A stretch of DNA of 44,518 nucleotides from a virus. The stretch spans positions 1 through 44,518 of the IMG/VR virus record IMGVR_UViG_3300025536_000022. One strand, written 5' to 3'. Below, piece after piece: positions 1,409 to 40,452 of the stretch. Numbering within the stretch: the first letter of the stretch is position 1; each line of letters starts with the position of its first letter. The notes under the pieces are model-generated. The model did no database searches and was not told the origin of the DNA. It saw nothing but the letters and a program-made list of their open reading frames with translations. The position numbers and the translations under genes were made by a program.

Positions 1409-1438
1409 AAAAAAAGAGGTCAAACGACCTCTTTTTTA
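1409..1438. terminator. Bidirectional intrinsic terminator
   Basis: Stem GAGGTC (1416-1421) and GACCTC (1426-1431), loop AAAC, flanked by A7 on the left and T6 on the right, so it can end transcription from both sides. It separates the convergent lipoprotein gene (+) and giant ejection protein gene (-). The stop codon of the latter (TAA, complement of 1436-1438) falls inside the U-tract. Confidence 0.9.
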
Positions 1439-4400
1439 TTGCTCTGATTTAAGCAGCTTACTGTATTCAAGTTTTACTTGCGGTGTCAATATTCCGCCTG
1501 CTCTTTTCATTTGCTTGTAAATATTAGTACCGTCTTCGCTTCCATCAAAAATATTACCGTAATGATACATTATCATTAAAGCTTTAGCCTCAGCATCTTG
1601 CTCATATTTTATATCCAAAATATTACTGTCAATATTTTTAAGTTTGATTTTGTCTTTAATTTTATTGACTAATCTTTTACGATCATTAGGTTCTAATTCC
1701 TGTAACTTGCTATTTAATTCATCCCTAGAAATTTCCTTGTTGATATAATCTTTAGCAAGTTTATTAAACTCAGCTTTTTGACGATAATTCTCAGCCTTAA
1801 TTTTGTCTAATTTGTCTTCAAGGTCTTCTCTAGTTTCTAATTTTCTATTAAAATCAGATGAATAGCTTACAACTCTTTTACCGGTTGATTTATAAATTGT
1901 CTTAAACAAGTCTTTTCCAATCGATTTCAAATCTTTATCAGACGCTATAGCATCTGCACCACCATACAATACCCCAACAAATGGATTAGTGTTTGGAGAA
2001 GTAATCAAACTTTCTACAAATGCTTTTGAGCGGACCGGAGAAAGGCCATGTTTTTCACCTAGTTTTTTGTAAAAATCCTCAGTGCTTTTCATGTTAATTC
2101 CTTCTACAGATTTTGGAACTTTACCAATATCATTCGATAATGGCTGCTCACGGAAAAAATCATATCCAGTCGCGTAAGTTAAAGTAGCTTTTATCATAGG
2201 CGTCCTAGTAAAAAAACCTTGAGGACTTGTTACATCAAACGGAGCAACATTACTGTTAAAAGTAAACAAAGCATCTTCTGTTATTCTCGATGTGCTTTTT
2301 GTCTCTTTTCCGGCCACTTTACGAATAACATTAGTGTAAATATCATCTGTAACAGAAATTACAGGAGAAAGCTCCTGAGCCTTTGCAATTTTCAATACCT
2401 GATACTCTCCGTCTTCATTTTTTTTACCAGTTACAATATTCATGTACTTTGATTTCTGATATCGGCTTATACCGGACATTGCATCCAGATAAATATCATA
2501 AGCCGATTTATCGTCATCATCATCTTTATTAGCTGAAATTAAGGCCAGGGAAATACCTATTGGAACAGCAGAAGCCATTGTAGCAATTTGCAAAATTTTT
2601 GAAGTTGTTTTTACCGGATCTTTTTCTAAAGTAGAAATAGCAACGCGACCACCTTGGAAAGCAACGTTGATATATGGAATAACACTTTCCAAGTCCTTAG
2701 TAATATATCCACCTTGGTTAAAATCCAAAATACCCCTTGCATTTGCTACTGCATTATTGTAAATATCGTCAAGCTGCTGCTTGTCTGTAACTTGAGAAAT
2801 ATTATCAATTCCCAATTCCTTTAATTGATTCTGAATACTTCTTTGGAAAATACCAAGTCTGAACATTACCTCACTGTAGGCAGAAATTTTATGTAATGTT
2901 AGCTTTGAAAATACAGATTTTGCAACGTCTTTCGTATTAGGAGAAATTGATTTATCAATAAGTTGACCAAGCAAGCTTTCTTTTTTTAACTTACCTTGAG
3001 AACTTAAAAAGTCCATGGCTCCACCATACTCAAAATATTTTTTTACAATTTCGCTATCTGAGTTTCGAATTTCTTTAATCGATTTTAAAACGTCTTTTGC
3101 GACCTGAATCATAGCTTTAGGAACAAAACCACTATATTGATCTGAAAAAGTTACCGTAAACATAAAATCCCTTGGTGTATTTACAATTGGGAAAGCCGGG
3201 TTGTTTCCGGTAGCAATACCTTTTACCAAAGCAGAACCAGAAGCATAAGAAATAAACTCTTTTGCCTGGTTACTCAAAAATCCATCAATGTTATCATTCC
3301 AAGATTCATGCAAATCCTTTTCTACAAAAAATTCATTACGCTGCCCATCGACATAGTAATACATTTTAGCAAAATTTAATGGAGTTTTTTCAATTTCATA
3401 TTTTGGGTTTCCATTGTCGGTAAAACCAACAATAGGATTATCAATTATTTTTGAACTTAACTCTTTGAAATACTTATAAAATCTAACATCGTCGCCCGTT
3501 AAATTATTTTCATCAAGAGATTCAAATCGCTGTTTTGCCTTCGGAAATTCATCGGTTATAAATCGCTTATTGATATTGTTTTTGGCCATAGCTTTTGTTC
3601 TGGCCAATAATGAATTTGTCAATAGCCATTCAGAATTTAATACCAAACTATTAGCGTCACCCTCAGACATCGATTTAATTTGGTCCGAACTTAAACCACC
3701 AGTATCATTGTTATTGGTTCTCTTTCCGGAATCTAAATCACCATCAAAATCGGTTACAAATTGAAGAAAAACACGAGGTTGATAATCTATATCTTGTAAC
3801 GAATCAAATGAGGCTTGAGAAATCAAACCATTTTCGAGCATATCCTCTAATAAAGATTTGTAAACCTTAAAATATTCATCTGCACGTTTGGATAAATCAT
3901 TGAATTTCTCAGTACCCAATTCTTCTTCAAGCTTTAACAAAAACTTTTCTGATTTTAAACCGTCAATAAAATTTGGATGTGTTACCGGTTCCAACCCTCT
4001 TGATTGACGGTTATTGTCAATAGCAATAAATCGCTTGGCCTGAATAATTTCATCAAGAGCATTTCTTTCTTTTACAGTAAGTTTACGATAAATTTTATCA
4101 TAAGCTTCTTCAAACAATATCTTTGCTTTACCGGAAGCGCCATGAGCATTTATGATAAGATTTTTGGTGTTTTTTAACCCTGATTTATCAAGTAATCTTT
4201 TTGCTAAGTACTGTCGGTCCGTAAAACGTGAAATGAATTTACGGTACTGTTCGCGAATAATTTCCTTGGGAGTTTTTTTATTAGCAAGTTCTGTTCTCGC
4301 CTTGTTGAATGTATCTTTTACTTCATTATAGGCATCTTCCTCAGATATAGTTTCTGAAAGTGCACGATTCAGTTTGTTTTCAGTCTGACGACTACCAATT

Positions 4401-7400
4401 CCTGATTGAATATCACTGATTTTACCAAGAAAATCTCTCTCAAAATTTTGTTCAAAATCTTGTTGCTCCGAACGACTTAGATTTTTATACCAATCAGTAT
4501 TTTTCACAGCATCAATACCAGCCTGAATAATTCCGGCCGCATCTTCCAGTCTTGCAACAGCTAACTTCATAGCTTTAATAGCCACTTTTGCTACTACAAT
4601 TGGGATACCCATGGAAAGATTTTCTTTCCCAAATTGGTCTAAATCATTTTCTGCTTGGTCTAACCATTTTTTAATATCCTCTAAACTGGAACTTTTATTG
4701 ATTTTCCCTTTATTTTCAATTGCATTTTCAACACGAGGCTTTACAACATTCTCTGCAACATCTGGATTCTTTTCTACCAAAGTTGCCGAACGTCCGGATT
4801 CAATAGCTTGCTCACCGGTAACTCCGCTACCGGCAAATGGATCTAATATTTCTTCACCTTCAAATGTAGATTGTTGAATCAATGCACGTAGAAGTTCTTT
4901 TGGTTTTTCAGTTTGATAACTGTTCCTAACGCTTGGCCTGATAAAACGGAAATTAAGATTTACCGGTATTTCTCCTTCTCTTGCATTACCACTTTTTGTA
5001 ACCAGGATTAATCGTTCCGGCTTGGCAACTTCTCCGCGAACATTAGTTACCGGAGATCCATCTTTAAAAGTTTTTTGATAGCCACCTTCTCCAATTACTT
5101 TAAATCCAGCATCAATAACCCCATCGACGTATTTTTGCATATCATTTTGTGCCGTCTGAGCACCCGATAGCATAACGTAAACATGGTTGTCATCATCAAC
5201 CATTTTAGAAACATTTTTCATGAGTTTGGCAAAAGCCTCCGGCATGATAAAATCGTATTGTTTGATTCCTCTATTTCCACCAATTAGTGCACGGCTAAAA
5301 TATGCAGGGTCAAGAAATACCATATCAAATTTACGTCCTTCCTCGGCCATTCTTTCAGTGACTTCAACAGCGTCACCAGCCTCAATCCATGCAGTCTGTT
5401 TACCGTCAGAAGTTTTGAGAACGTAAACACCTTTGTCAACACGCTCAAAAGTTCCATCCTTGGCGCCAACGCCCAATATTCTACGAACATTCGGCTCAAG
5501 AATTCCGGTTTGCTCTGCAATCTCTTTTATGCTTTTGGCATCATTACCAATAGCATCTTTTACTTGTTCTCTTTGGGATTTTGGTTGTTCGCCCTTTCGG
5601 CCAACTGGCTCTCCACGTGTTTCTTGTAATCCGGATTCGAATCCGCTTGCTTGTGGATCTTGGATATCACCGCCGCTCTCTCGGACTGGGATAGTTTGAT
5701 TTGTTTCTTGTTCTCGGAATTTTTCATAATCGTTCATCAAAGATAATAATTCTTCATCTGTATATTGATACAAAAGTTCTTCATTTTGAAATCTTTCTTT
5801 CTTTTCTGTAAGTTGATCAATAGCTTTTTTTAAATACTTTTCTGAGGCAGGTAAACCAGTTGCATTTGTAAAAGCTTGCTTCAATGCATCAATTTTGGCC
5901 TTTTTACCGCTATTAAGAAAAGACAATGCGCCAGAAGGATTTTCATTTATGAAATCAATAACATCTTGTTCGCTAATACGAGGGCTATTCGCGTTATAAT
6001 CTCCAAAAGCTTCTATTTCTGCTGACATCGCTATTTCATCAATGCCTCTACCTTGACCTTTTTTCGAAAAATATTTTAATGCTATACTTCTGTTGATATT
6101 ATTTCTATCTCCAAATTGATTATAGCTACTTGGCTCAACACCTTTTTCTCCTAAAGCTTCTGCAATAGCAACAGATTTATAATCGAGGCCTTCTTTAGCA
6201 TCAGATACTTTAACCCAACTCAATGTTTCAGCTATTTCTGCCGGATTTTCTGAATTTTTAGCCACGTCCTCCGCATAAGTATCATATTCAACAAGGAAAT
6301 TTTCAATAGCTGATTTTCCAGTTGTAAAATCAAAACTATCAGCATGCAAATCAAAAACTTTACTTGGAATAGATTTTCCTTTCGTTTCTGTTTTAGGATT
6401 TCCATCTTTATCAGTGGCTATCCAACCACCATTCTCAAATTTATAGTTATACTTTCCAACAGTTATTTCCTTTGGCTTTACGTCATTTTCAATTTGACTT
6501 GCTCCATTTCCAGCGGCGGATTGTAGTTCGTTACCTTTCCCTTGTATTCCTTCTGGGTTATCACCAGTTCGAACGTCTGCATTAGTAACAGTAATTCCTG
6601 CATTTTGTCCTTCATTGTTAATTTCATTTTGAGGGGAATTTACCTGTGTTTCTGAACCATTTTGTTGAGCTTCATTTATTGTTTGAGGGAAATTACCCTC
6701 ACTTTCATTCTTTTTTGATTCAGAATAAATTTGATTAGCCCTATCAGTAACCATTTCATTGGTAATCTCGATATTTTTTGTTCCATCTGGATTTAATTCG
6801 TTAACCAAATCCTCCATGGCCTGACGTTTAATTTTTTCTTGCTCTTGAATTGGTAAGACATCTACAACAGAAGTTCTACCTAACAATACATTCTGACGTT
6901 TATCGTAAATATCCCGGTATTCTTCCTCTAAAGCTTTGATTAGTTCAGATTTGTTTTTGAGTTTGCTATTCAAATCAATTTCGCGAGCTTGAGCCTTGAT
7001 TTCACCGGCTTTTTTATTCAAAAATTTTACTTCTTCAAACAATTCATCCGGCATAGAACCAATTTTATCTATGGCATTTGCCATGATTTTTGATGAAGAA
7101 GAAGTTAATTTTTCAATTTGTTTTTGAATAACCTCTCTATCAGAATCCGTTAAACCCTCCATTTCTAAAGATTTTGAAAACTCAATAATCTTTCGGGAAT
7201 TTTCATCAAGTAAAGCTAAATCTTCTTTATTTTGAAATGGTCTAACAATGGCACCTGCCACATGCGGAGCAGTCTTTAGTATCGAAGTTAATGTAAAAGT
7301 ATCTTTAAAAACTTTGCCGGTATTGTCTAACAAACCAACATTGTTTTTCCCTAAGATATACTTGTCGGTAAAGTTTTGAGTAAATTGAGTAAATTCCTCC

Positions 7401-9106
7401 CCGGCCAACTCCTTACTCATATCAACACCGTAATCTTTTGCCCATGCAATAGCTCTATCCTTTGCTGATTTTTTCAATAATTCCGGAGCTGAATTTTCAA
7501 CAGCTTTTAAAACACGGCTACCATTTTTTAAAATAGAGTATGTTGGTATTTCGGAAATGACTTCTGAACCACCATATAAAAGAGGCGCCACAGCCATTTG
7601 CATTGGAGTATAGTTTGCTTTACCCTGCAAAACTTCTTCATTCATTTCAGCATACTTTTGACCGGTAGAAGAAGCTCCTAAAAGTGCCAGTCCACGTGTT
7701 CCTGTAGATGTCGCTGCTAAAATAGGAAGTTGACTTGCTACTAAATCAGTAGCATAATTTACAAATCCTTCAATGCTTTCAATACTCTCAACAGGTTTTC
7801 TTAGTTTTTCTCTTTCAAAGTTTAGCTTTTGGCGTAAACCAGCACTGTCTTTATTGTATTTTTCCATGGCCGCATTCCAGGAATCATCATTGCTTTTTCC
7901 GCTAATGTTACCTACAACATTACCCCACCACATATAACCATCGTTCAAACCTTGTAGTAAATCACCAAATCCAATACCAACAGTTTTTGCTAAATTTGCC
8001 CAGTCTCTATTCTCTCTACGGAACAAATCAAGTTCTTGTTCTGCAGTACCTAAATCACTCTTGTCTTTTAATAAACTATCGTAATTTTTTTGCGCTGTAT
8101 TGCTTATCTCTTGAAGTTCATTCAATAAGTTAATGCCTTCTGAAATACTATCTTCTGGAATTGGTTCTCCCGATTTTCTCGCTAAATCTATTCTTGATTG
8201 AATTTCCTTGTAGGCCTTATATTTTTCTGCAAAATCAGATTTTAAAACAGATTGTACATTAAGTTTTCTTTTAGTCGATTCATTAAGATTTATAATATCA
8301 TCATAACGATCTAACTCTAAAACTTTTTTGTCGTTTTGAGGTAAATTATCAAGGAATGAATTTGCTTTATCTACATAGACATTTAAGCGCTCAGAATCAA
8401 GATATTTTTTCTCAGCTCTTATTTTAATTTCTTCTTGAGATAACTTTTCTTTACTCTTTACCGCTTCCGTTTTAACCTCTTTGATGTATTTGTCAAGCGG
8501 ATCAGTAGAAAGCTTCCAAGCTTCTTTTGTAGATTCATCAGCACCAAAACCAACAACATCCATTAATCCATTCCAGGTTCTTTTTAAACCTGTTTCAACA
8601 CCATTGAGAAAACCGCGATTATTTACCTCGTCAGAAATCCTTTTTTTAATTGCTTCATCTTCCTCTGGGGAAATTTTTGTAGCAGCTCTAAAGTAAGATG
8701 TAAGCTCTTTTTCTCTTTGTTTTTTTGCATCTAAGAAATCACCAACCGGGCCTTTCATTTCTTTCCCGGTTGCCTGATTTATATAAGTGGTTTTGGCAAC
8801 TTTGTAGTTTGCATTAGAATTATCTTGTGGAGCTCCGTACAAATCCTTACTAAACTCAGGGTCATTTTTTGGAGCTGTAGTTTTTTCACCGGCCAATCTA
8901 TATTTTGGAGTACCCGATGAACCATCTGTCGGTTCCGAATCCGATTTTTTCCCAGGAGAAGTATCTTTTGATTTTTGATTTTTTTTTTTATCATCAACAA
9001 CTTCAAATGGTTTATTTGGATCAAACTTTGGTTTATCCTCATTTACTGGTTGAAATGGCTTATTAGGGTCAAAAGGGGGTTTAGTTAAATCTGTATTTTC
9101 TACCAT
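1436..9106 (-). CDS. Giant polyvalent ejection protein with wHTH-methyltransferase module, 2556 aa
   Basis: This is the last of three putative virion-carried proteins injected with the DNA. Residues 8-40 hold two copies of an FDPNKPF motif common at the N-terminus of such proteins. About 440-560 is rich in small and hydrophobic residues and may cross a membrane. About 1175-1230 is a winged helix-turn-helix (SIKEIAEQTGILEPNVRRIL). It is followed by a DNA amino-methyltransferase with motif IV DPAY at 1266 and SAM motif I DPFAGSG at 1422, the beta-class order. From about 1850 to 2130 the text (NPAFPIVNTPRDF; ARGILDFNQGGYITKD; PYINVAFQGGR) resembles LPD38-type regions of large polyvalent proteins. 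The likely role is protection and establishment of the entering genome. DPAY instead of DPPY leaves activity uncertain. It starts 2 nt after the homing endonuclease gene. Confidence 0.85.
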   Translation of the reverse strand: MVENTDLTKPPFDPNKPFQPVNEDKPKFDPNKPFEVVDDKKKNQKSKDTSPGKKSDSEPTDGSSGTPKYRLAGEKTTAPKNDPEFSKDLYGAPQDNSNANYKVAKTTYINQATGKEMKGPVGDFLDAKKQREKELTSYFRAATKISPEEDEAIKKRISDEVNNRGFLNGVETGLKRTWNGLMDVVGFGADESTKEAWKLSTDPLDKYIKEVKTEAVKSKEKLSQEEIKIRAEKKYLDSERLNVYVDKANSFLDNLPQNDKKVLELDRYDDIINLNESTKRKLNVQSVLKSDFAEKYKAYKEIQSRIDLARKSGEPIPEDSISEGINLLNELQEISNTAQKNYDSLLKDKSDLGTAEQELDLFRRENRDWANLAKTVGIGFGDLLQGLNDGYMWWGNVVGNISGKSNDDSWNAAMEKYNKDSAGLRQKLNFEREKLRKPVESIESIEGFVNYATDLVASQLPILAATSTGTRGLALLGASSTGQKYAEMNEEVLQGKANYTPMQMAVAPLLYGGSEVISEIPTYSILKNGSRVLKAVENSAPELLKKSAKDRAIAWAKDYGVDMSKELAGEEFTQFTQNFTDKYILGKNNVGLLDNTGKVFKDTFTLTSILKTAPHVAGAIVRPFQNKEDLALLDENSRKIIEFSKSLEMEGLTDSDREVIQKQIEKLTSSSSKIMANAIDKIGSMPDELFEEVKFLNKKAGEIKAQAREIDLNSKLKNKSELIKALEEEYRDIYDKRQNVLLGRTSVVDVLPIQEQEKIKRQAMEDLVNELNPDGTKNIEITNEMVTDRANQIYSESKKNESEGNFPQTINEAQQNGSETQVNSPQNEINNEGQNAGITVTNADVRTGDNPEGIQGKGNELQSAAGNGASQIENDVKPKEITVGKYNYKFENGGWIATDKDGNPKTETKGKSIPSKVFDLHADSFDFTTGKSAIENFLVEYDTYAEDVAKNSENPAEIAETLSWVKVSDAKEGLDYKSVAIAEALGEKGVEPSSYNQFGDRNNINRSIALKYFSKKGQGRGIDEIAMSAEIEAFGDYNANSPRISEQDVIDFINENPSGALSFLNSGKKAKIDALKQAFTNATGLPASEKYLKKAIDQLTEKKERFQNEELLYQYTDEELLSLMNDYEKFREQETNQTIPVRESGGDIQDPQASGFESGLQETRGEPVGRKGEQPKSQREQVKDAIGNDAKSIKEIAEQTGILEPNVRRILGVGAKDGTFERVDKGVYVLKTSDGKQTAWIEAGDAVEVTERMAEEGRKFDMVFLDPAYFSRALIGGNRGIKQYDFIMPEAFAKLMKNVSKMVDDDNHVYVMLSGAQTAQNDMQKYVDGVIDAGFKVIGEGGYQKTFKDGSPVTNVRGEVAKPERLILVTKSGNAREGEIPVNLNFRFIRPSVRNSYQTEKPKELLRALIQQSTFEGEEILDPFAGSGVTGEQAIESGRSATLVEKNPDVAENVVKPRVENAIENKGKINKSSSLEDIKKWLDQAENDLDQFGKENLSMGIPIVVAKVAIKAMKLAVARLEDAAGIIQAGIDAVKNTDWYKNLSRSEQQDFEQNFERDFLGKISDIQSGIGSRQTENKLNRALSETISEEDAYNEVKDTFNKARTELANKKTPKEIIREQYRKFISRFTDRQYLAKRLLDKSGLKNTKNLIINAHGASGKAKILFEEAYDKIYRKLTVKERNALDEIIQAKRFIAIDNNRQSRGLEPVTHPNFIDGLKSEKFLLKLEEELGTEKFNDLSKRADEYFKVYKSLLEDMLENGLISQASFDSLQDIDYQPRVFLQFVTDFDGDLDSGKRTNNNDTGGLSSDQIKSMSEGDANSLVLNSEWLLTNSLLARTKAMAKNNINKRFITDEFPKAKQRFESLDENNLTGDDVRFYKYFKELSSKIIDNPIVGFTDNGNPKYEIEKTPLNFAKMYYYVDGQRNEFFVEKDLHESWNDNIDGFLSNQAKEFISYASGSALVKGIATGNNPAFPIVNTPRDFMFTVTFSDQYSGFVPKAMIQVAKDVLKSIKEIRNSDSEIVKKYFEYGGAMDFLSSQGKLKKESLLGQLIDKSISPNTKDVAKSVFSKLTLHKISAYSEVMFRLGIFQRSIQNQLKELGIDNISQVTDKQQLDDIYNNAVANARGILDFNQGGYITKDLESVIPYINVAFQGGRVAISTLEKDPVKTTSKILQIATMASAVPIGISLALISANKDDDDDKSAYDIYLDAMSGISRYQKSKYMNIVTGKKNEDGEYQVLKIAKAQELSPVISVTDDIYTNVIRKVAGKETKSTSRITEDALFTFNSNVAPFDVTSPQGFFTRTPMIKATLTYATGYDFFREQPLSNDIGKVPKSVEGINMKSTEDFYKKLGEKHGLSPVRSKAFVESLITSPNTNPFVGVLYGGADAIASDKDLKSIGKDLFKTIYKSTGKRVVSYSSDFNRKLETREDLEDKLDKIKAENYRQKAEFNKLAKDYINKEISRDELNSKLQELEPNDRKRLVNKIKDKIKLKNIDSNILDIKYEQDAEAKALMIMYHYGNIFDGSEDGTNIYKQMKRAGGILTPQVKLEYSKLLKSEQ

Positions 9107-11967: not shown

Positions 11968-12040
11968 CGTAGGATAGAGCAGTTGGTAGCTCGCCGGGCT
12001 CATAACTCGGAGGTCGCGGGTTCGAATCCCGCTCCTGCAA
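11968..12040 (+). tRNA. Initiator-type tRNA-fMet (CAT)
   Basis: It folds as a standard 73-nt tRNA: acceptor CGTAGGA/TCCTGCA, D stem GAGC/GCTC, anticodon arm CCGGG-CTCATAA-CTCGG, T arm GCGGG-TTCGAAT-CCCGC, discriminator A. The anticodon is CAT. Three bacterial initiator marks are visible: the unpaired C1-A72 end, the A11-U24 pair in the D stem, and G29-G30-G31 in the anticodon stem (paired with C-U-C, so one G-U instead of G-C). CCA is not encoded. It is the first product of a promoter that begins almost at its 5' end. Initiator rather than elongator Met or Ile2 is favoured by C1-A72. Confidence 0.88.
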
Positions 12041-12054
12041 CAAACTTTAAAGGA

Positions 12055-18033: not shown

Positions 18034-18909
18034 TTAAAGCATTTGTGACGCGGTTCCCATTGCTCTGGAAACTTCAATTAAACTGAAATTAAGTTGGTCA
18101 ATTCTGGTTTCATGCAATGTTGTCTTATACCTGTTTAATGCATCCATCTTTTCTCCTCTTGATACATTTCTTTTAGGTTGAATACAAGCATAGTATATCC
18201 AATCTTTAATAACAGATTCAAGCTTTTTGTGAACAGTTATTTCTGTCTCTTGAATATTTTGCCATTGAAGACCATCACTGTAGTATTTTAATACAATTTC
18301 TCGATCTCTCAAGTCGGAGCTAAAAAGAATATATCCTCTACGTTCATCGATTATTGCTTCGCCGTATTTTGATAAAACTGATGTGTTTAATTCAAAGAAT
18401 CCGCCTTGAAAATCATGGCTAAATTCATATTTATTAAACGGCTTTGCATAAGCATTAGAACTATCAGCTGTTAAAATTTGATTGTTTTGGTCGAACAATA
18501 TATTTGCATCATTGTCTTGCAAAAATCCAGTAGCTATATTGATGTTGTTGTTGATGTTTAGAGGATACAATCTAAAATCAGAGCCAACCACACTTATCCA
18601 TTGATAGTCAACAAAATCTTGAGGTAATGGTAATCTAAGTGAATCACCTACCGTCATTTCTATAGAAATAACATCATTGGATAATTTTCGATGTTTTTTG
18701 ATAGCATTTTTAGCATGCATCAAAATAATGCTTCGCTTTGTGTTTTTTAAAATATGGTCATCATCCTGGATAGACAACATTAAATCATCCATGATTTGTT
18801 TTAAAGTCACCCACTGATAACTTCCCAGATTATCAACATCATCGTAATAATCCGCCGGTGATTGTACCGAGGGATTATCAAAAAATACTATGTTTGAATA
18901 TATTGACAT
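18034..18909 (-). CDS. Tail hub / tail tubular A-like protein, 291 aa
   Basis: This 291-residue structural protein has the pattern of gp11-type tail hub proteins: an N-terminal helical region that packs against the portal/neck ring (WVTLKQIMDDLMLSIQDDDHIL), a strand-loop with LRLPLPQDFVDYQWISVV, and a conserved DERRGYILFSSDLRDREIVLKYYSDG segment. This last segment recurs in crAss-like hub proteins. A helical C-terminus follows (KLESVIKDWIYYACIQP). The gene is 8 nt from its upstream neighbour and 1 nt from the nozzle gene. Identification as the hub is inference from motif pattern and order. Confidence 0.7.
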   Translation of the reverse strand: MSIYSNIVFFDNPSVQSPADYYDDVDNLGSYQWVTLKQIMDDLMLSIQDDDHILKNTKRSIILMHAKNAIKKHRKLSNDVISIEMTVGDSLRLPLPQDFVDYQWISVVGSDFRLYPLNINNNINIATGFLQDNDANILFDQNNQILTADSSNAYAKPFNKYEFSHDFQGGFFELNTSVLSKYGEAIIDERRGYILFSSDLRDREIVLKYYSDGLQWQNIQETEITVHKKLESVIKDWIYYACIQPKRNVSRGEKMDALNRYKTTLHETRIDQLNFSLIEVSRAMGTASQML

Positions 18910-31625: not shown

Positions 31626-32222
31626 TTAAATTAAAATTCCCAATACATCTTCATTTTTAAACCACTTGTATTCTTTGTTTTCAAATGAAAAATCAATACC
31701 AAGCATACCATCAACAACTAATGTATCACCGGTAGAAACTTCCTCAAGTAAATTTTTGTTTCCGTAAACTAACTTCACCTTATTGAGTTCAATTTTTCCT
31801 TTCAAATGGTCAGTAATAATCATTTCGGATTTTATCTCAGATTCCTTTTTTACAACATCAAATAATGCATTGTTGAGGTAGCCTTCCCAATTATGTTTGT
31901 CTGATTCTCTGTAAAGAACAATAAGTGATGGATTTACTTTGTAGTATCCTTTTTCCTTATCAACTAAGAATGAGCTGTCTTGAGTACCGTGTGTAAGCGC
32001 ATAAGCTTGTTCGAATAAAATAGTAGGATCAATTACTACATCAAATCCTTCTCTTATTTCAGTTTCATGATGAAGTGGTACTGAAATTACTTTTCCTATA
32101 CGATTTGCGGCTTCTTTAGCCGATAATTTGTTGTTTACAAAAAAAGTGTTTCCTTTTTCAGTAGTTATTTTGTCTGTAAAAGGATTTTCGATTTGTATAA
32201 TGAATTCAAATAATGATTTCAT
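31626..32222 (-). CDS. Two-domain GroES-like protein, 198 aa
   Basis: The first half (about residues 14-105) has GKVISVPLHHETEIREGFDVVIDP followed by KGYYKVNPSLIVLYRESD. The second (about 120-198) has NKVKLVYGNKNLLEEVSTGDTLVVDG and ENKEYKWFKNEDVLGIL. Both repeat the GroES order: G-x-V-x-V, then hydrophobic-G-D-x-V, a loop, and a final tyrosine/hydrophobic strand before the domain ends in an I-L-type pair. The likely fold is a tandem cochaperonin. It is 3 nt from the spanin-like gene and 6 nt from candidate TerS, so it is made with head proteins. The mobile loop that binds GroEL is not clear. The fold call is inference. Confidence 0.5.
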   Translation of the reverse strand: MKSLFEFIIQIENPFTDKITTEKGNTFFVNNKLSAKEAANRIGKVISVPLHHETEIREGFDVVIDPTILFEQAYALTHGTQDSSFLVDKEKGYYKVNPSLIVLYRESDKHNWEGYLNNALFDVVKKESEIKSEMIITDHLKGKIELNKVKLVYGNKNLLEEVSTGDTLVVDGMLGIDFSFENKEYKWFKNEDVLGILI

Positions 32223-38897: not shown

Positions 38898-39491
38898 ATG
38901 GGAAAAAAAGAAAAACACATTGACAAAATTCCGTCAAATGCTAAGGCTGTTTTGAAATCTGCAAAGATTATTGTAGTAAAAAATCAGCACATGAAGAAAA
39001 ACAACCTGAATAAAAAAACTTTTTTAAAGCACTATCATAGTTACGATTTTCTTCAAATGTCAATGATAGTCAGGCCATATATTATAAAAAAATACAATAT
39101 CAATATCACCATACTTGAGCTTTTGTTATACCTGTATCCTTACAACTATTTTACACGGCCAGATTACATGTTGCTAATACGTCCTTTTAGTGTATTGACA
39201 ATTGATAATTTGATAGATAAGGGATTGGCTAGACTGGCAGTAGATGTGCCCGGTAAAAACAAAAAAATATACCAGTTATCTACTATTGCAAAAAACATTG
39301 TGACAAATTATTACGAAACGTTAGCCGGTGCAAAGAAAATACCAATTAACTACAAAAATCCATTCATGACGGCCGAGGCTAATAGAAGTGATAAAATCCG
39401 ATTGAAACTAATTAAGAACCTTCAGAATTTGCCTGTTCCAGATACTCGGAAATTATATTTCGAAGAATCAAATCCCGACGATAAGAGTTAA
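38898..39491 (+). CDS. Winged-helix DNA-binding protein (MarR-like), 197 aa
   Basis: The N-terminal 45 residues are strongly basic. About residues 60-145 fit a winged helix: NITILELLLYLYPYNYFTR, LIRPFSVLTIDNLIDKGLARLAVD, then KKIYQLSTIAKNIVTNYYETLAG. This is MarR-like. It is the only gene on the plus strand between the early and late minus-strand operons, and its promoter faces the late operon's promoter. It could control early-late switching. Its 3' end overlaps the minus-strand gene at 39412 by 80 bp, so mutual antisense effects are possible. Confidence 0.7.
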   Translation: MGKKEKHIDKIPSNAKAVLKSAKIIVVKNQHMKKNNLNKKTFLKHYHSYDFLQMSMIVRPYIIKKYNINITILELLLYLYPYNYFTRPDYMLLIRPFSVLTIDNLIDKGLARLAVDVPGKNKKIYQLSTIAKNIVTNYYETLAGAKKIPINYKNPFMTAEANRSDKIRLKLIKNLQNLPVPDTRKLYFEESNPDDKS

Positions 39492-39941
39492 TAGGGATTT
39501 TATTGATTTCCTCTAAGTTTTTACGAATTAATTTGGCACGGTCTTCCTCCGAACCCTTGAAGAAAAACAAAGGGCTTACTTGGTAAAGGCCGCGCCCTTT
39601 CTTTTTGTTTAGAAGGTAGTTATCAGCCAGGCCACTAAAGCATTTATGAATTGTGCTTTCAGAATAAGGTTCTTGACCGATTTTTATTAGTAAAGCATTG
39701 AACCTACCGCGAACTTGAAAACTGTTTGAAATCAAATTGTTTTCATCCATTTCCTCGGTTATAAAATCAAGCAAAATCCTTTCTGCTCGAGACAACTTCA
39801 TTAACAGCAAAATTGATGAAAAATACCTTTTTACAAATGCACATTCTACCTCTACAGATGTATGACGAAGCAGCTCTAATTTTTCATTAAGGCTTTTCGG
39901 AACATCCTTTGTAAGATAGTTTATTCTTTTTTTTTACGCAT
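39412..39941 (-). CDS. Winged-helix / RepL-like protein needing a -1 frameshift, about 176 aa
   Basis: The conserved part (from MKLSRAERILLDFI) has a winged-helix pattern: a helix at SRAERILLDFITEEM, a recognition-like segment YSESTIHKCFSGL, and a wing ending KGRGLYQVSPLFFFKGSEED. The last block recalls RepL-type plasmid replication proteins, but also other winged helices. In the same frame 44 further codons lie upstream (LTKDVPKSLNEKLELLRHTS and so on) without an ATG. An ATG at 39941, 2 nt after the preceding stop, starts M-R-K-K-K and reaches a TAA after an A9 tract (39927-39935). A -1 shift there joins the two parts into M-R-K-K-K-R-I-N-Y-L. The alternative is a homopolymer sequencing error. 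Confidence 0.6.
39927..39935 (-). other. A9 slippery tract, candidate -1 frameshift site
   Basis: On the minus strand the codons run CGT AAA AAA AAA GAA TAA. The heptamer A-AAA-AAA is among the most shift-prone in bacteria. A -1 shift (or one extra A by polymerase slippage) continues as AGA ATA AAC into the long frame of the downstream protein. Without it the product is only six residues long. Confidence 0.55.
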
Positions 39942-39943
39942 TT

Positions 39944-40198
39944 TCAATTGAATTTGATTATCATCAATCTTTCATCAATCCTTTTTTTTACTTCTGAATG
40001 TTTCATTTTCACAATATAGTAAAATGAACCTGAGACTACTGTACAGTGATTATCATCGTAAGGACGTATGTGATCAATGTTGTAAAAAGTATGAACCTTT
40101 ACATCACTCTTTGAAATATCAATATAAACATTCATCTTTTGAAGTTCATACTGTTCATCATTACACCATAGAACCGGTAAGTCCAAACCTAGCATCAT
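39944..40198 (-). CDS. Small hypothetical protein, 84 aa
   Basis: Its ATG overlaps the stop of the GroES-like gene by 4 nt (ATGA) and its stop is 2 nt before the next ATG. The product is beta-like with KVHTFYNIDHIRPYDDNH and CTVVSGSFYYIVKM, then a charged helix. Small proteins with this I-x-x-I-x-PY pattern are common in Bacteroidota phage early operons; the function is unknown. Confidence 0.65.
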   Translation of the reverse strand: MMLGLDLPVLWCNDEQYELQKMNVYIDISKSDVKVHTFYNIDHIRPYDDNHCTVVSGSFYYIVKMKHSEVKKRIDERLMIIKFN

Positions 40199-40452
40199 AT
40201 AATAACCTCTACATCATTTTTCAAAACACCAATGTTTAAAAACAAACAGTCTTTACCTTGATAGTTTACCGGCTGGCCATGACCTTTAAAATATCTCACA
40301 TGGTCACCTATTTTTACCTCTGTCACTGATTGGCCTACAGCAACGACAATACCTTCATTTGACTTTCTGTTTTTTACAGGAATGTAAACTCCTCCAACTT
40401 TTTCCTCGGTAGGAAGCTTCTCAACCAATATTTTTTTTCCAATTATAATCAT
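40195..40452 (-). CDS. GroES-like cochaperonin, 85 aa
   Basis: A single-domain cochaperonin, like phage T4 gp31 in concept. The GroES order is clear: an N-terminal strand KILVEKLPTEEKVGGVYIP, the basic mobile-loop region KNRKSNEG, IVVAVGQSVTEVKIGDHVRY, and a C-terminal strand FLNIGVLKNDVEVII. It is about 10 residues shorter than host GroES. It probably caps host GroEL to help fold capsid or tail proteins. It overlaps the next gene by 4 nt and sits in the early operon, unlike the two-domain relative near TerL. Confidence 0.8.
   Translation of the reverse strand: MIIIGKKILVEKLPTEEKVGGVYIPVKNRKSNEGIVVAVGQSVTEVKIGDHVRYFKGHGQPVNYQGKDCLFLNIGVLKNDVEVII

Follow-up and report, generated by a model that had tools for sequence, protein, structure and literature searches.

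A conserved start-proximal A run in a RepL-like phage gene as a candidate signal for −1 recoding

Results

Organization of the locus

The window under study is the whole 44,518-nucleotide stretch of the IMG/VR virus record IMGVR_UViG_3300025536_000022. The terminase that it encodes is 53% identical to that of Cellulophaga phage phi18:3 (Pachyviridae). A GroES-like gene is followed by a small ORF and then by the main ORF that is the subject of this report, the 3′ end of which overlaps a convergent partner gene on the opposite strand (Table 1). Phage phi18:3 shares the order of RusA, GroES, small ORF and convergent gene, with gp082 occupying the place equivalent to the convergent partner, but the main ORF is missing from that phage. 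The ORF is absent also from Flavobacterium loci L051–L054, genomes in which the convergent partner is present. Two GroES-like genes were noted in the window (40195–40452 and 31626–32222, minus strand), the second of which has a C-terminal Cpn10 domain, and a tRNA-Met gene (CAT anticodon; 11968–12041, plus strand) lies among minus-strand genes.

Table 1. Positions of the genes and sequence features around the A run, numbered along the window.
Feature	Position	Strand	Remarks
Zero-frame start codon ATG	39939..39941	-	2 bases past the stop of the upstream ORF; from sequence
Zero-frame mini-ORF, MRKKKE-stop	39921..39941	-	From sequence
Candidate slippery run, A9 (A9–A11 over the eight distinct loci)	39927..39935	-	From sequence
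Candidate slip heptamer A_AAA_AAA, in zero-frame phase	39927..39933	-	From sequence
Main ORF, −1 frame, 173 codons plus stop; RepL-like, predicted winged helix	39412..39933	-	
Upstream ORF, 84 aa, stops 2 nt short of the ATG	39944..40198	-	Weak phrog_19566 match
Predicted imperfect RNA stem-loop, −20.6 kcal/mol	39846..39919	-	Begins 7 nt past the A run
Convergent partner gene, phrog_17028-like	38898..39491	+	Shares 80 nt with the 3′ end of the main ORF

The minus-strand junction reads TTC AAT TGA aa ATG CGT AAA AAA AAA GAA TAA. An initial sequence-only reading of the window had placed an ATG at position 39941, two nucleotides past the preceding stop, that reads M-R-K-K-K-E-stop across nine A residues, which was confirmed: the upstream ORF ends with TGA at 39946–39944 and the zero frame is closed by TAA at 39923–39921. 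The reading also had described a frame of 176 residues one base back. The −1 frame is stop-free from 39933 down to the stop that ends at 39412 and itself comprises 173 codons, and slippage by −1 where the A run ends would yield a product of 176 amino acids. The −1 frame is shut by a TAA at 39936–39934 and so lacks any start codon of its own ahead of the run, and the earliest ordinary in-frame start within the main ORF is a TTG at 39810, use of which would cost ~40 conserved residues. Fusion with the upstream ORF was considered and rejected: this ORF terminates ahead of the run and is in a different frame, and the −1 frame is closed by the TAA just upstream of the run.

Runs of nine or more A or T residues are rarer than expected in the window, with three observed versus ~12 under a first-order Markov model. 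One of the three is an A20 stretch at the contig end (44499–44518) which probably is an assembly or library artefact. This depletion, together with the retention of the tract and its phase in all close relatives described below, argues that chance does not explain the A tract.

Conservation of the out-of-frame arrangement

Viral contigs were queried for relatives, first with the main ORF and later with alignments, and one bacterial genome contig scan was added. IMG/VR provided L002 (equivalent to L004), L005, L006, L007 (equivalent to L008) and L003 (equivalent to L009), to which were added a Flavobacterium MAG (L011) and the isolate genome of Flavobacterium caseinilyticum AT-3-2 (L012). The set comprises eight distinct loci, namely the window, L004, L005, L006, L007, L009, L011 and L012, which represent only ~6 independent lineages. 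A start codon, a run of A9–A11, an early zero-frame stop and an ORF in the −1 frame (163–175 codons) were found in every one. The start codon is placed alike relative to the run, being ATG in seven loci and GTG in the eighth, the zero-frame stop follows after 5–10 codons in the relatives, and a zero-frame A_AAA_AAA or A_AAA_AAG, which fits the X_XXZ_ZZN pattern of −1 ribosomal frameshift heptamers, is present in 8/8 cases. The junctions are ATG-A10-GGTAA (MKKKR-stop) in L004, L007 and L011; ATG-A11-GTAA (MKKKK-stop) in L006 and L012; ATG-A10-GG (MKKKRKPLTI-stop) in L005; GTG-CT-A10 (VLKKKVLNTP-stop) in L009; and ATG-CGT-A9-GAATAA (MRKKKE-stop) in the window. The partner gene is convergent and overlapping in all eight distinct loci.

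The alignment of relatives that had been proposed as a check therefore found the tract and the out-of-frame layout kept throughout the distinct loci. All seven relatives with at least 40% identity possess the start codon, a run of A10–A11 and the main ORF at −1, and an in-frame ATG without an A tract, which had been named as evidence against slippage, was absent among them. That configuration instead was seen in distant homologs of ~17–34% identity: L016, L017/L018, L026, L027, L034–L037 and L019, the last of which is a Dulem virus 41 gene annotated as RepL, have an ordinary in-frame start with no A run at this point. Given the in-frame starts of these distant homologs and their lack of the run, the arrangement looks to have been derived in, kept by and specific to the present clade. 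When the convergent partner was used as search bait no further copies of the frameshifted gene were recovered. The partner genes of L006 and L012 also start with MKKK, yet AAG codons break the run (ATGAAGAAAAAACC and ATGAAGAAGAAACC, respectively).

Run lengths in the eight loci differ by phase-keeping substitutions (A10GG versus A11G) and not by indels, and the alignment from the start codon onward is gapless apart from a single inserted codon in L005; thus, the frame relation was never lost. If the phase were arbitrary, the chance of six lineages sharing it is estimated as ~(1/3)^5 = 0.004. These observations bear on phase variation, in which replication slippage would alter the length of the A run and switch the gene on or off across the population. 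A homopolymer near the start codon is typical of phase-variable genes, but that process predicts mixed phases whereas all distinct loci share one 'off' phase, and the changes in run length are substitutions of the kind just described. We regard phase variation as very improbable.

The sequence-only reading had offered a homopolymer sequencing or assembly error as its alternative, whereby the true run would be one A longer and the gene an ordinary in-frame ORF. Such tracts are error-prone and the relatives are mostly metagenome assemblies. However, a mistake of the same sign would be needed in ~6 lineages, including the isolate genome L012, at three run lengths, and elsewhere in the contig an A11 run (8979–8989) reads in frame through an ORF of 2556 amino acids. 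A separate MAG assembly, L010, agrees with the window at every one of 3884 bases, although the two possibly derive from the same sample. An error accordingly is judged to be unlikely in view of the relatives, the isolate genome and the in-frame A11 run, with only a slight chance remaining to it.

Pairwise comparisons among the relatives gave dN values of 0.03–0.59 versus dS values ranging from 0.84 to saturated, which indicates that the protein of the main ORF is under strong purifying selection in all comparisons. With dS near or past saturation and dN low, the layout appears to have persisted through long divergence. That the ATG is out of frame might be read as the mark of a decaying pseudogene, but the whole ORF is under this strong constraint and the stop-free frame is intact in every locus, so that decay is the least credible of the explanations that were considered and is extremely improbable.

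Translation of the main ORF by plain initiation was assessed in the same loci. In the stretch from the preceding stop to the run, the −1 frame of the window, L004, L006, L007 and L011 contains no ATG, GTG or TTG, and thus plain initiation fails for these five loci. In-frame upstream starts elsewhere consist of a TTG in each of L005 and L009 and an ATG in L012 which is far upstream within the upstream gene; at these three loci translation could begin there with no need of slippage. Protein conservation starts at the A run, and initiation at the TTG at 39810 would drop that part. Slippage would be dispensed with if translation began in the −1 frame at a non-standard codon inside the run or directly past it; GTA ATA follows the run directly in five loci and ATA in the window, and the upstream codons of L005, L009 and L012 could be added to these. 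Nevertheless, no candidate codon is common to all loci, with L005 offering only GAA ACC and L009 only AGT CTT, and the A run itself is left unexplained. Initiation of this type therefore has little to commend it and is thought highly unlikely.

Properties of the encoded protein

The sequence-only reading had ventured that the product is a DNA-binding or RepL-like early protein. The Pfam RepL family (PF05732) matched the window protein with 15.5 bits (E 0.013), below the curated cut-off of 20.3 bits, and all eight sequences produced a weak match to the family (best E 0.0019). Two of the distant in-frame homologs, L016 (25.9 bits) and L019 (24.8 bits), scored above the cut-off. Because its score falls under the threshold, the window protein is described as RepL-like on sequence grounds and is not filed as RepL. 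When phage and plasmid records were queried with the proteins of the window, L003 and L012, the sole match was a weak one to the RepL protein of Dulem virus 41. RepL-annotated phage proteins such as this one, which passes the family threshold, start in frame, unlike the protein under study.

A structure model of the window protein had a mean pLDDT of 74.6 and an H-H-H-H-E-E order of elements, with a strand at residues 2–9 in a part of low confidence. Winged-helix regulators and replication terminator protein made up most of the best PDB matches, none of which had E <0.001. A winged-helix fold is plausible with moderate confidence. The RepL-like character and the possible DNA-binding fold thus were upheld in qualified form, whereas membership of RepL for the window protein was not.

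RNA structure downstream of the A run

The predicted stem-loop (Table 1) belongs to the most structured stretch of the gene, which extends from ~+20 to +95. When 70-nt windows were scanned from −200 to +460 against dinucleotide shuffles, the +20 window was the most structured, with a mean z of −2.06 compared to −1.18 for the next. Shuffles of the +25 window that keep both the protein and the codon set gave a summed z of ~−7 over the eight sequences, with negative values in 8/8. Measured from the end of the run, the mean z for the slip genes was −2.71 versus −0.51 in a control set of 33 genes from elsewhere in the window, and the excess persisted when six lineages alone were used (p ~4e-5). The strongest start-proximal value among the 33 control genes (z −4.06) was that of a virion protein gene at 18034–18909 on the minus strand, which overlaps the start of the next ORF.

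In five of the eight minimum-energy folds (window, L004, L005, L006 and L011) the stem begins 5–8 nt past the run, which is the spacing given for stimulators of bacterial −1 frameshifting (PMC4066793). A long imperfect stem in a gapless alignment of seven sequences has 83.7% of its cells paired and six pairs that are changed on both sides, which is more than in most shuffles and in every slid version. There is no one fixed stem: L005, L007 and L009 pair differently, and the RNAalifold consensus of the eight sequences is weak. The RNA structure nonetheless looks to be under selection, and we infer that its role would be to stimulate slippage. As four of the in-frame distant relatives (L016, L017, L034 and L036) likewise have a structured 5′ coding region (z −2.3 to −3.4), with RNA structure in the first 100 nt that looks selected, the stem-loop may have another job. 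A Shine-Dalgarno-like AGGA near the start codon was recognized by eye only in L005, one of the eight loci.

Discussion

Mechanism of recoding

The retention of a start codon, a run of A9–A11 and a −1 ORF in diverged relatives supports the slippage proposed in the sequence-only reading, and it is highly probable that recoding of some kind yields the protein. The zero-frame phase of the heptamer and the downstream stem-loop favor −1 ribosomal frameshifting. In the proposed scheme, most ribosomes would start at the ATG, read three or four lysine codons and end at the nearby zero-frame stop, while a fraction would slip by −1 with tRNA-Lys on A_AAA_AAA/G and proceed to the full protein. The downstream stem-loop would aid the slip, and output thereby would be fixed as a set fraction of initiation. 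In E. coli, three AAA codons suffice for ribosomes to slide (PMC4363877). In F. johnsoniae, Shine-Dalgarno signals are rarely used and shifting at prfB is weak (PMC12421855), and a slip signal that has no Shine-Dalgarno element is expected to work in such hosts because F. johnsoniae seldom uses them. On balance the evidence leans toward an obligatory, programmed −1 recoding signal immediately behind the initiation codon of a phage gene whose RepL-like product probably binds DNA.

The chances that the ribosome is the principal slipping machinery are about even. All of the runs are 9–11 residues long although the ribosome requires just A7, and these lengths fit slippage by RNA polymerase, which does require them. 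Under transcriptional slippage the polymerase would stutter on A9–A11 such that some mRNAs acquire one additional A, or lose two, which places the ATG in frame; the ribosome then would translate in the ordinary manner and the RNA structure would have another role. Runs of at least nine residues, as found at every locus, allow RNA polymerase to slip efficiently in some bacteria, with Thermus dnaX using A9 and IS elements such runs (PMC1088944), and A/T runs of this size otherwise are depleted in the phage. The conserved zero-frame phase of the heptamer is left unexplained by transcriptional slippage, as is the downstream structure. Stem-loops in nascent RNA that aid slippage by RNA polymerase are located upstream of the run. 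A stem-loop in this position was looked for as a polymerase stimulator and none was found, the upstream flank being unstructured. One account of such stimulation places the hairpin in the part of the nascent RNA that has been synthesized first, 5′ of the run (PMC5009743, Figure 18). Transcriptional slippage as the whole explanation is a substantial possibility, albeit one with less than an even chance. Slippage of the polymerase with addition of one A also may contribute to the same product alongside −1 ribosomal frameshifting, or dominate.

A further proposal is more speculative and is considered rather unlikely: the signal may act as a start-proximal recoding switch that ties output of a replication or regulatory protein to the slip rate of the ribosome (or RNA polymerase) at codons 3–5, in hosts that rarely use Shine-Dalgarno signals. 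The protein level then might read out the translation state of the host during infection, with ribosome load or the degree of tRNA-Lys charging as examples.

Comparison with known systems

The arrangement resembles that of E. coli dnaX and of IS911/IS3-type cassettes in combining a zero-frame A-rich heptamer, a stem-loop (here a predicted one) a few nucleotides 3′ and a close stop. The likeness to dnaX that the sequence-only reading had drawn holds for the A-rich slip site, but the shift would occur here at codons 3–5 after a zero-frame peptide of just 5–10 residues, no Shine-Dalgarno-like stimulator is present in seven of the eight loci, and there are no two useful products: the shift seems to be needed for the sole real product and so would gate its output. 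A run of at least nine A residues is shared with Thermus dnaX and the IS transposase genes that employ transcriptional slippage, whereas the present run is start-proximal, its use is apparently obligatory, and the downstream structure and heptamer phase are not accounted for by transcriptional slippage. The +1 frameshift of prfB, which encodes release factor 2, is similarly early and obligatory and gates a whole protein; the shift proposed here differs in being −1, at another site and without known autoregulatory logic. The open-access papers that were searched contained no earlier report of transcriptional slippage in Flavobacterium or of a RepL protein with frameshifting. Thus, this kind of signal is known, while its place, its apparently obligatory nature and the phage family apparently are new so far as the searched sources show.

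Most annotation pipelines would miss or shorten a gene of this type, the N-terminus of which seemingly is reached by slippage only. The locus suggests that recoding may extend to other phage genes in which ATG is followed by at least nine A residues and which have been labelled as 'error' or 'missing start'. In Flavobacterium phages, a conserved −1 shift at codons 3–5 also would be a compact natural test of slippage by the ribosome or RNA polymerase of Bacteroidota in a setting that does not depend on Shine-Dalgarno elements. The in-frame A11 run that served as a control above (8979–8989, minus strand) is near the start of the ORF for the 2556-amino-acid protein (1436–9106, minus strand), residues 1244–1491 of which are DNA methyltransferase-like, and is a possible second slippage site in the window.
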